Source of the DNA: a virus
Length of the DNA stretch: 20,069 nucleotides
Reading direction: 5' to 3' (one strand)
IMG/VR virus record: IMGVR_UViG_3300025469_000045
Location: 1 to 20,069 of that record
Below, one piece after another: positions 2 to 3,297 of this stretch (its first letter is position 1; each line of letters starts with the position of its first letter). The notes beneath the pieces are model-generated. The model was not told the DNA's origin, did no database searches, and saw only the letters and a list, made by a program, of their open reading frames with translations. A program made the translations under genes and the position numbers.

Positions 2-1054
2 CATCGCTGCGGAACTGGCGGCGTCGATATTGGGGCGATTGAGCGCTCGGGATTCAAGGTTGTTGACGGCGTCATAATCGACCTTCAGTTCAAAATTCCG
101 CGCGCCTACCTGATCGCGGATGATTTCGATGGGAGCAAGGTTCAAGCGTATCCGGCTAGTGAAATCATTCCAGTGTGGAACCGCAGGCGCGCGGGACAGT
201 ACCGCGGGCTGACGCTGTTTCATGCCGGCATCCTTGACATCCACGACCTTGATGACTTGCAAAAATATGAGATGCGCGCGGCCAAGGACGCCGCTTCGAT
301 TTCGCGCATCATCAAAACCCAGGCAGGCGCGGTCACGCCGGACGGAAACGCCATCGGTGCTTCGCTTACTGCGCTGCCGAATGCTGACCCTGCAACGCGG
401 GTGGCATATTACAAACAAGCGCTCGGCGGTGAGGTATTGGTGCCGCAGGTCGGGGATGAAATTACGCAATTCGAGAGCAAGCGCCCGTCTGCAGCGACAA
501 CCGGTTTTTGGGATCGGCTCGACGCTAAATTTGCTCAGGGTTCTGGCATTTCCTACCCGGCGTTGGTCGATTACCGCGTCGCATCGTTGGGCGGCGCCAC
601 CCTGCGCGCCTGTCTGGAGTCGGACAACCGGCGATTCGAGTTGGAGACTATCGATCAAGCCCGCGCCGCGCAGAAGGTTTGGGAATTTGCGATAGGTTGG
701 GCCATCGCGCACGGCGAGGTTCCGAAAAATCCTGATTGGAACAAGGTCAGGTGGCACCCGCCGCGGCGCACAACGGTCGACGTGGGCAACGATTCTGCGG
801 CCCGCCTGGAGGAACTGAAGGCTGGTCGCACGACCTATCAGGACGAATACGGCGAGACCGGTGAAGACTGGCGCGAGCGTCTTGACCAGCGTGCGCAAGA
901 AGAAGCCTACATCGATGAACTCGCGGCTAAATACAAGATTCCACGTCAACTTATAGCCAGCTTCGCGATGGAGCGGCTTGCCGGACAAGCGCCCGACGCG
1001 GTCGGACCAACCCCGGCGCCAGGGGAAGGAGGCGGAAAGGGAGAAACTCAATGA
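2..1054 (+). CDS. Phage portal protein, lambda gpB-like (5' end outside window)
   Basis: This is the C-terminal 350 residues of a portal protein, the dodecameric ring at the capsid vertex through which DNA is packaged and ejected. The frame is open to the left window edge, so the GTG at 173 is an internal codon and not the start. Around 170-290 the translation has the typical lambda-portal pattern: an IIPVW..RR.GQYRGL stretch followed by an Asp/Leu-rich helix (DIHDLDDLQKYE) and an Ala-rich segment. Further on are a GFWDRLDAKFAQGSGISY segment and a W-x-P-P-R motif near 760 leading to the acidic C-terminal helices. The family is about 530 residues long, so roughly a third is missing. The C-terminal tail is rich in Pro and Gly. 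Its TGA overlaps the ATG of the capsid polyprotein. Assignment to the lambda-type portal family (Phage_portal_2) is from remembered motif pattern. Confidence 0.88.
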   Translation, partial: HRCGTGGVDIGAIERSGFKVVDGVIIDLQFKIPRAYLIADDFDGSKVQAYPASEIIPVWNRRRAGQYRGLTLFHAGILDIHDLDDLQKYEMRAAKDAASISRIIKTQAGAVTPDGNAIGASLTALPNADPATRVAYYKQALGGEVLVPQVGDEITQFESKRPSAATTGFWDRLDAKFAQGSGISYPALVDYRVASLGGATLRACLESDNRRFELETIDQARAAQKVWEFAIGWAIAHGEVPKNPDWNKVRWHPPRRTTVDVGNDSAARLEELKAGRTTYQDEYGETGEDWRERLDQRAQEEAYIDELAAKYKIPRQLIASFAMERLAGQAPDAVGPTPAPGEGGGKGETQ

Positions 1055-3297
1055 GCCGGCCCACAGGGGACAAGCTCAAGACCGTAACTGCTATTTTGAA
1101 TGCCGTGGGAGACCAGGACATCAAGCTTTCATGCCGGGAGATTGAGCGCCTAGAGGGTGTTCGCAACGGTACTATAGGCAAAATTGAGCGCACGGCGCTC
1201 AAGAAGGTGCATGCTGGTCTGGTCGGGTACAGAGTTGGTCGCGTTCAAATTCAGGCGCGCGATTCAGCGAGTGTCATTGCTTTTTCGGTGCCCTCTGCAT
1301 TGCCCTCGCTCGCTGCCTCCGACCCGATGCCCGAGGCTATCATTTGGATGCCGGCTGGCGTCCACGCCATCACAGCCTGCACGCTCGACGGTAAGGGATA
1401 CAGCGGCACGGTCATTTGTGATGAGCAGGCAGCGCGTGTTGTAGCTTCCCACCTTGCTACCCTAAAGGCCAAGGGCAAGCGCACCTGGATCGACTTCAAT
1501 CACGAGGATGGCGCCGCTTCTGCGGATATTAAGGCGTTCTCGTGGGACCCCGCCAAGGGAATCATGGCGCATCTCGACTGGACGCCGGGCGGCGAAAAGT
1601 CAGTGCGCGACAAAGAATTTATTTCGTTCAGTCCTGCTTTTGAGGCGAACCGGACTACCGGTCGCATCGAGAGCTTGATTGAGGGACATGCGTTAGGGGG
1701 CTTGGTCAACGCACCGGCCTTTGACGCAATGCCAGCTTTAATCGCGGCCCGGTATGGCCTCGATGCTTCTCACAGAAATCCGCATCCGGAGGATAACCCG
1801 GAATCCAAAAACATGAAAGAGACACTGCTCAAGATTCTGGCCGCGCTGAAGGTTACTCCACCGGCCAACGCTACCGAGGACCAGCTTGTGGACCTCCTTG
1901 CCAAGCATATCGATGGCCTCGCGCCAAGCGAGGAGGTCGTTAAACTGAAGGCTCAGCTTACCGATCTGAAGACCGCCGCCGATGCTGAAAAGACTGCATC
2001 AGTGCAGGCCAAGAAGGACGCCGACGTCAAGATCGCGGAAATGGAGCGCAAGATGACTGAGACCGCTGCTGTGCTGGCAGGTTTCAAGGCCGGTGCCGAT
2101 GGCGTGCGCGTGGTCGTGACGCAGGAGGACATGACCGATGTTCTCGCTGCCTACGCCTCCAAGGACCCGTCGCAGTTTCCGGCGAATGAGCATTTCGCGC
2201 AGCAACGCGCGGAACTCGCCGTTGATCGCGCGCTGATCTATGCGCGTAACATCAAGCCGCGCCTGTTCAAGAATCGGGAGCGCGCTTCGATTCGCGCTGC
2301 CCTGGCTGACCTGCTCAGTCATGCCGGCGTCCACAGTGCAGACATTGTCAAGATCGTCGCGAAGGCTACTACCCGCCTTCAGATTCAGGCCAACACGCTC
2401 GGCACGCTGTCCGGTTCGCTCATTGCGCAGCAGGCTCTTTCGCTGCTCAAGGCTGACCTGCCGGCGCTCAGTATGTTTACGGCCGACTTCAGCAACGCCG
2501 CTGCTAAGCTGAATCAGACGGTAATCACCCGCATACGTTCGATTCCTGCGGTGCAGAGCTACGCTGCGCCTCCGACCGGTTATGCTGCTACGGCCGTCAC
2601 CGACACTGACGTTCCGGTGACTATCGACCAGCACCGCTACGTGCAGTTCGACTACAACGCGAACGAACTCGCTTCGACCAACCGCGACCTGTTCGGAGAG
2701 CAGGCCGAGGGTTCGATCTACGCGCTCGGCAAGGATGTTGTCGACTTCATCCTCGCGCTTGTGACGGTCGGCAACTTCAACATCGGCGGGGGGAAATCGA
2801 CGGTCGCGCAGAGTGCGTGGACGCGCTCGGCGGTGATCGCACAGCGCGTCGCGCTCCGTAAACGGAAGGTGATGATTAAGGACGGCTTTGCGATAATGAA
2901 TGAGGATTACTTTGGTCAGCTCGCGGTTGACCCGGTGATCGCTACCCTCGCGACGTTCCAACGGCCTGACCTCATCACGGAATACGTATTGCCCAAGATC
3001 GCCGGTTTCATGCCGGTGGGTTACGTCGACCTGCCCACGACCAGCAACCTCGTTGCTGTCCTTGGTTCCAAGGAAGCGCTCGTGGTTGCGGCCCGCCTGC
3101 CTTACGACTACGTTGACGCTCAGATCGGCAGCAACTACGGCGCGGTTTCGCAGGTCAGTGATCCCGACACCGGGCTGTCAGTGATGCTGACGCAGTACGT
3201 CAACCACGACGCCGGCGCCAGCCGCTATCGCGTGGCGCTCATGTACGGTTCTGCGGTGGGTGACAAGACCCGCGCACAGCTCGTCGTGTCGGCCTGA
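1051..3297 (+). CDS. Mu gpI-like protease / scaffold / major capsid protein fusion
   Basis: A 748-residue polyprotein in one open frame. Residues about 85-235 resemble the phage Mu gpI head-maturation protease: a WIDFNHEDG block with His151, an EFISFSPAF block with Ser194, and a later LVNAPAF block; His151 and Ser194 are candidate catalytic residues. Residues about 255-345 are a Lys/Glu/Ala-rich helical region with coiled-coil character, as in internal scaffolds (Mu gpZ). Residues about 465-748 look like an HK97-fold major capsid protein, with a hydrophobic-acidic block at about 526-570 (DQHRYVQFDYNANELAST, then GEQAEG). The ATG overlaps the portal stop and is preceded by GGGAG at SD distance. 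In Mu these parts are genes I, Z (inside I) and T; here they are one gene. The first 60 residues are unassigned. Cleavage or internal initiation at Met255 would be needed to make excess coat protein. Confidence 0.85.
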   Translation: MSRPTGDKLKTVTAILNAVGDQDIKLSCREIERLEGVRNGTIGKIERTALKKVHAGLVGYRVGRVQIQARDSASVIAFSVPSALPSLAASDPMPEAIIWMPAGVHAITACTLDGKGYSGTVICDEQAARVVASHLATLKAKGKRTWIDFNHEDGAASADIKAFSWDPAKGIMAHLDWTPGGEKSVRDKEFISFSPAFEANRTTGRIESLIEGHALGGLVNAPAFDAMPALIAARYGLDASHRNPHPEDNPESKNMKETLLKILAALKVTPPANATEDQLVDLLAKHIDGLAPSEEVVKLKAQLTDLKTAADAEKTASVQAKKDADVKIAEMERKMTETAAVLAGFKAGADGVRVVVTQEDMTDVLAAYASKDPSQFPANEHFAQQRAELAVDRALIYARNIKPRLFKNRERASIRAALADLLSHAGVHSADIVKIVAKATTRLQIQANTLGTLSGSLIAQQALSLLKADLPALSMFTADFSNAAAKLNQTVITRIRSIPAVQSYAAPPTGYAATAVTDTDVPVTIDQHRYVQFDYNANELASTNRDLFGEQAEGSIYALGKDVVDFILALVTVGNFNIGGGKSTVAQSAWTRSAVIAQRVALRKRKVMIKDGFAIMNEDYFGQLAVDPVIATLATFQRPDLITEYVLPKIAGFMPVGYVDLPTTSNLVAVLGSKEALVVAARLPYDYVDAQIGSNYGAVSQVSDPDTGLSVMLTQYVNHDAGASRYRVALMYGSAVGDKTRAQLVVSA

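Follow-up and report, generated by a model that had tools for sequence, protein, structure and literature searches.

A protease-scaffold-capsid fusion gene in tailed phages of Verrucomicrobiota and its predicted nested products

A tailed-phage head needs hundreds of coat subunits and few copies of the protease, and one gene that encodes protease, scaffold and coat together appears to violate this copy-number rule. We analysed such a gene in a stretch of viral DNA of 20,069 nucleotides (IMG/VR record IMGVR_UViG_3300025469_000045, positions 1 to 20,069), hereafter the window. A single open frame on the plus strand (positions 1051-3297, 748 residues, no internal stops) links a protease of the Mu gpI type to a coiled-coil scaffold and an HK97-fold coat. 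The gene is likely to be a head-assembly gene of a Verrucomicrobiota tailed phage that makes nested, C-coterminal products, which are then cut at two sites.

Protease, scaffold and coat in one frame

The window protein matches the Pfam family Mu-like_Pro (PF10123) over residues 113-385 (E=5.6e-20, 72.6 bits; cut-off 25.2) and the head maturation protease family PHROG 328 over residues 90-378, both towards its N-terminus, with no match to Peptidase_S78 (PF04586) up to E=1. A phmmer search of the window protein against the PDB gave no matches. Modelled alone, the protease domain reached a predicted local distance difference test score (pLDDT) of 89.1. When this model was compared with known structures by VIA-align, the first 31 rows were all herpesvirus assemblins or T4 gp21 protease, with a Z of 9.0 for varicella-zoster virus (VZV) protease (root-mean-square deviation, rmsd, 3.3 over 114 positions) and of 8.3 for T4 gp21 (rmsd 3.4 over 119 positions); the later rows were mostly unrelated folds with a Z of 4.5 and below. 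Because plain Foldseek gave weak E-values for the same model (best E 0.046), we base the fold assignment on the VIA alignment together with the Pfam match and with residues His151 and Ser194, both invariant across 34 aligned relatives. This evidence supports an assemblin or phage prohead protease fold for the N-terminal part, with His151 and Ser194 as candidate catalytic residues.

For the whole protein, modelled at a pLDDT of 73.4, confidence is high across most of residues 91-222 and 449-748 and drops in both linkers, 222-253 and 408-447. The model contains helices at residues 253-265, 276-289, 294-346 and 380-406, the third of which is one long helix. The major head protein family PHROG 283 matches residues 447-628 (E=1.3e-16), and the model of the coat part, residues 447-748, aligns with HK97-fold capsids (HRP29 procapsid, Z 17.9; P22 procapsid, Z 17.6). 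An earlier note, made from the letters of the window alone, had described an uninterrupted 748-residue frame with a protease part around His151 and Ser194, a coiled-coil part and an HK97-type coat part. No stop lies between the parts, profiles and models recovered all three of them, structure prediction returned the expected protease fold, and both residues proved invariant.

The relatives differ from the window protein in two further ways. The homologue L010 apparently starts near window residue 60; residues 1-59 are the sole soft point of the frame and are possibly an acquired piece. In three relatives (L055, L085 and L092, the last from Chthoniobacter flavus) the coat match is split, with an extra ~50-100 residues inside the HK97-fold part.

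The same fusion was sought in related genomes and was found in many of them. A search with the protease alignment yielded 80 viral loci, of which 43 carry the fusion, representing 37 distinct proteins in frames of 610-945 residues; all 43 fused frames also contain the coat domain of the window. In four of the remaining loci the contig ends before the coat, and 33 have a separate protease of ~350 residues. Two other IMG/VR contigs (L002, L003) carry the same 748-residue frame with 100% DNA identity and are maybe not independent samples. A first scan of bacterial genomes with a single sequence gave no matches, and a later scan with the alignment found genome loci, 9 of 16 of them fused; together with G013 (641 residues) and G263 (634 residues), these make 11 Verrucomicrobiota genomes, from Opitutaceae, Chthoniobacteraceae and others, and include the isolate Chthoniobacter flavus Ellin428 (L092). 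A PF10123 protease scored above the cut-off in 111 genomes of a 387-genome Verrucomicrobiota sample, and because most of these frames have ~350 residues, the fused form is a minority there. Judged by the loci compared, the fusion is common among viruses of Verrucomicrobiota.

The window is metagenomic, and its frame might have arisen in assembly from separate genes through a missed stop or a frameshift. The identical gene in two further contigs speaks against such an artefact, and comparison refutes it, one frame being kept in 43 viral loci and in 11 bacterial genomes, one of them an isolate. Because the fused homologues are divergent, down to ~30% identity, and still keep one frame, a missed stop is very unlikely, and we regard the artefact as practically discounted.

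The coat of this family also occurs as a separate gene. In Verrucomicrobia phage P8625, where protease and coat are not fused as they are in the window, it follows a Clp-like protease and shares 25% identity with the window coat. In G218 (L166) the gene ahead of it is again protease-like and not of the Mu type, and in G114 (L183) and G085 (L151) the coat gene is preceded by an unfused Mu-type protease-scaffold gene. Unfused coats of this family start at the position of window residue 446, with the first residues of several (MATNT, MSNTN, MANTL) lining up with 445-448, which makes the fused gene look like the result of a merger between a protease-scaffold gene and a coat gene through loss of the intervening stop. 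Fused and unfused forms are strongly clustered in the protease tree, with ~7 changes, in a tree whose 139 columns are too few to settle the number of fusion origins or the direction of change and in which four 'unfused' rows (L014, L022, L024, L041) are merely cut by contig ends. A 2082-residue frame (L102 / G002), at first sight a larger polyprotein, was discarded because over its first 1400 residues it seems to read other genes antisense or out of frame, and the long N-side of L028 is likewise a probable out-of-frame reading.

A conserved start codon at the scaffold border

Although the protease-scaffold linker is hardly alignable, each of the 37 distinct fused viral proteins carries a Met either exactly where the scaffold starts or no more than two residues away. 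So do 11 of 11 further fused genes from bacterial genomes and 39 of 42 unfused relatives. In published Mu-like phages the scaffold likewise starts in frame inside the protease gene (PMC4378225; PMC2628397).

Because the encoded residues (Gly-Glu, Lys-Glu, Gly-Gly-Lys) already make GGAG-like strings, the strength of Shine-Dalgarno (SD) strings relative to synonymous shuffles does not discriminate and was dropped as a test of the internal start; RNA openness was used for that reason. We folded 42-base segments and expressed the structure at each as a percentile within its own gene. The internal ATG lies at a median 1.4th percentile, and 86% of the internal ATGs fall within the 5% of lowest structure, compared with 2.7% of 409 other in-frame Met codons. 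In the bacterial genome set, which was not used to find the pattern, all 11 internal ATGs were at or below 0.034. Codon choice raises openness beyond what the amino acids account for (mean quantile 0.27 of synonymous shuffles). A start at the scaffold/coat border was also considered and was rejected, since there is no open-RNA signal at that border (mean 0.47) and only 6 of 37 genes have a Met nearby.

Internal initiation at Met255 is strongly supported by this comparison. Because the conserved Met lies in open RNA and the scaffold/coat border has no such signal, the gene probably yields much scaffold-coat product and less protease-scaffold-coat product.

The earlier note had placed ATG 1813 (residue 255) at the scaffold start, with a GGAGG (1788-1792) at a 20-base spacer, and these details were all correct. 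It had also judged the distance between ribosome site and start too great for normal use; the spacing of the GGAGG is indeed poor, but a weaker GGA at a 10-base spacer had been missed. Among the relatives, about half of the fused genes have well-placed GGAG- or AGGA-type strings upstream of the internal ATG, and the soil clade is mostly SD-free and appears to rely on unstructured RNA. In this clade and in the bacterial genomes, the internal start mostly follows C/A-rich, G-poor sequence that has no SD string, a hint that phages of Verrucomicrobiota may initiate translation independently of SD.

Two other explanations of the products bear on this start. There may be no internal initiation at all, so that every coat subunit carries a protease and self-cleavage at both borders releases protease, scaffold and coat in equal numbers; cuts at the two candidate borders described below would be enough to release all parts, and the internal start of the window has a weak ribosome site only. 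We hold this to be unlikely, because 48 of 48 fused genes have a Met where the scaffold starts, in RNA of an exceptional openness that other Met codons lack, and because the same start exists in unfused relatives and in published Mu-like phages. The nested scaffold-coat product could also come from an internal promoter and a second transcript. Herpesvirus UL26 and UL26.5, which overlap in frame and have a common 3′ end, provide a precedent (PMC4498786), and in most relatives the bases before Met255 are lower in G+C than the gene. However, the openness signal is centred on the ATG itself, internal translation starts are used by known Mu-like phages, and nothing pointed to a promoter, though no promoter scan was made; a second transcript seems quite improbable to us.

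Candidate cleavage borders and a model for head assembly

The motif [ILV]-x-A, with the presumed cut after Ala, recurs at the protease/scaffold border (residues 230-234) and at the scaffold/coat border (444-448). In nearly all fused proteins the coat is preceded by [ILV]-x-A-[AGS]-[ND], with Ala446 nearly invariant, and in most of them the protease ends in P-[LI]-W-A-[KA]-[NR] or L-I-A-A-R. A profile trained on the scaffold/coat border ranked the protease/scaffold column first of 610 alignment columns when each cluster was left out in turn, and the reverse test gave a median rank of 3 among ~650 profile windows. The window borders, LIA-A and IQA-N, have the same pattern as the R- and M-sites of pseudorabies virus assemblin, YLQA-T and VQA-S (PMC4498786), a protease of the same fold. 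Two self-cleavage sites, at 232/233 and 446/447, are moderately supported by these comparisons.

The scaffold/coat border might instead stay uncut, in which case the scaffold would remain on the mature coat and the protease would only free itself or be inert. Cleavage at 446 is a prediction from comparison, and the border Ala is also found in the N-terminus of some unfused coats, where its conservation is maybe structural. Yet the [ILV] two residues before Ala446 is conserved although the coat domain of unfused relatives does not reach that far, the pattern is repeated where the protease ends, and the protease has a conserved His and Ser; moreover, a helical scaffold of 190 residues on each subunit would presumably crowd the packaged DNA. 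An uncut border is, in our judgement, distinctly unlikely.

The observed frame, domains, conservation, open RNA and border motif point to the following course of head assembly, in which the use of the internal start, the product ratio, and the two cuts and their order are what we infer. Translation from position 1051 would give the 748-residue protease-scaffold-coat protein as a minor product, and translation from the conserved ATG at 1813 would give the 494-residue scaffold-coat protein as the major product. Because of these two nested products, every coat subunit would be made with an N-terminal scaffold, as it is in HK97, and a minority with the protease in front. Both products would co-assemble into a procapsid, where the protease would cut after Ala in [ILV]-x-A, at 232/233 to free itself from the scaffold and at 446/447 to free the coat, and the scaffold fragments would leave before or during packaging.

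Several points weigh against this course of events. The signal at the internal start of the window is below that of most relatives (openness percentile 0.08, synonymous quantile 0.49, and only a weak GGA), SD-like strings before Met255 are no stronger than in synonymous shuffles (mean -3.6 vs -3.3), and linkers rich in Asn, Gln, Thr and Pro account for part of the RNA openness. The border motif is short and Ala-rich, the first site was picked by eye ahead of its test, and L093 and L096 have no good match at the protease/scaffold site. The gene products themselves are predictions from sequence and models. With these points taken into account, the suggestion of the earlier note that such a fusion calls for internal initiation, self-cleavage or both comes out strengthened, with strong comparative support for the start at Met255 and moderate support for self-cleavage.

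Table 1. Features of the fusion gene and its upstream neighbour in the window.
Feature	Position	Strand	Basis
Portal protein, 3′ part	2..1054	+	PF05136 E=3.6e-19; PHROG 21; stop overlaps ATG of fusion gene
Protease-scaffold-major capsid protein fusion gene, 748 residues	1051..3297	+	Open frame; protease and coat profile matches; same architecture in relatives
N-terminal stretch, residues 1-59	1051..1227	+	No counterpart in relatives (alignment); no Pfam match; pLDDT 30-51
Protease domain, residues 91-222 (Mu gpI type; assemblin / T4 gp21 fold)	1321..1716	+	PF10123; domain model; VIA-align
His151, candidate catalytic residue	1501..1503	+	Invariant in 34 sequences
Ser194, candidate catalytic residue	1630..1632	+	Invariant in 34 sequences
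Candidate release site LIA-AR, cut after Ala232, residues 230-234, protease/scaffold border	1738..1752	+	Motif rank; low-confidence linker 222-253
GGAGG, 20-base spacer to internal ATG (poor spacing)	1788..1792	+	Sequence
GGA, 10-base spacer to internal ATG, weak ribosome site	1800..1802	+	Sequence; duplex energy -3.5
Internal start codon Met255, predicted start of nested 494-residue scaffold-coat product	1813..1815	+	Met conservation; open RNA
Scaffold, residues 255-446, helical / coiled coil	1813..2388	+	Model helices; weak Phage_scaffold match E=0.07
Candidate maturation site IQA-NT, cut after Ala446, residues 444-448, scaffold/coat border	2380..2394	+	Near-invariant Ala446; unfused coat N-termini; shared motif
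Major capsid protein, residues 447-748, HK97 fold	2389..3294	+	PHROG 283; structure matches

Some other loci have further sequence in the frame of the protease. At L004:2963-5752, a lambda-type portal (PF05136, E=1.8e-52) shares one frame with protease, scaffold and the start of the coat; this frame of 930 residues is cut by the contig end and was seen in one contig only, and a four-part head polyprotein is possible. At L015:6254-7000, ~150 residues in frame ahead of the protease look HNH endonuclease-like by eye and have no Pfam match. At L182:6433-10530 (G122:C44), the protease frame extends 1366 residues into a region that by eye is phage pyrophosphatase-like, and the scaffold follows in another frame ~3.4 kb later, which we read as an insertion into a protease-scaffold gene. 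In the window itself, a DNA N4/N6 methylase gene (PF01555; 13619-14272) lies within the run of tail genes, with an NlpC/P60-like protein on one side and the large tail protein on the other.

Comparison with known head genes

In HK97 the delta domain is removed by the protease, which is encoded by a separate gene, whereas in the window the protease forms the N-terminal part of the fusion. The window protein resembles HK97 gp5, which includes the delta domain, in that a scaffold is fused ahead of the coat (PMC5513430). Systems of the Mu gpI/gpZ type (PF10123; e.g. KS10 and PaMx73) are like the window in the protease family, the scaffold on the C-side of the protease and the in-frame internal scaffold start (PMC4378225, PMC2628397), but the coat (gpT-like) of Mu-like phages is a separate gene, while in the window the scaffold continues into the coat in one frame. 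Herpesvirus UL26/UL26.5 have the same protease fold, in-frame nested products like those predicted for the window, and two cleavage sites of the form [VL]-x-A-S/T (PMC4498786), which the two candidate sites of the window resemble; there, however, scaffold and major capsid protein are separate genes, and the nested product comes from its own overlapping gene.

Protease-coat fusions have been published for Arthrobacter phage clusters AM, AU and AN and for Rhodococcus phage RRH1 (PMC5513430), and for Microbacterium phage cluster EE (PMC9671004). Like the window, these actinophages have protease and coat in one frame, but their fusions have ~520-540 residues and a shorter middle part. One fusion of this kind, gp5 of phage Anseraureola, matches Peptidase_S78 (PF04586, E=1.7e-14), whereas the window protein has PF10123 instead, and tblastn found no sequence relation between the window protein and the actinophage fusions. 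In five of the latter (L184-L188) the protease border carries a Met codon that lies in open RNA (percentiles 0.011-0.058) and follows AAGGA- or GAGGA-type strings, as if these genes also made a nested capsid product. The literature searched, which comprised open-licence papers only, gave no description of a triple fusion that includes a Mu-type protease; this is weak evidence of absence. Protease-capsid fusion is already known from actinophages, with an unrelated protease family; the fusion described here combines a Mu-type protease with a scaffold and a coat.

The comparison shows how the copy-number rule can hold in such a gene, in that the nested start, handed down from Mu-like I/Z genes, is still present after the fusion. 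On balance, we favour the view that protease-capsid fusions are generally two-product genes, in at least two groups (PF10123-type phages of Verrucomicrobiota and S78-type actinophages), in which a start at the border would keep the ratio of protease to coat low and duplicated cleavage sites would let one frame supply protease, scaffold and shell. Such a gene would be a compact, self-contained unit for forming a shell, and the model predicts exact N-termini for its proteins. One cleavage pattern at both borders, like that of the herpesvirus R- and M-sites, would also matter for the common descent of the maturation proteases of phages and herpesviruses.

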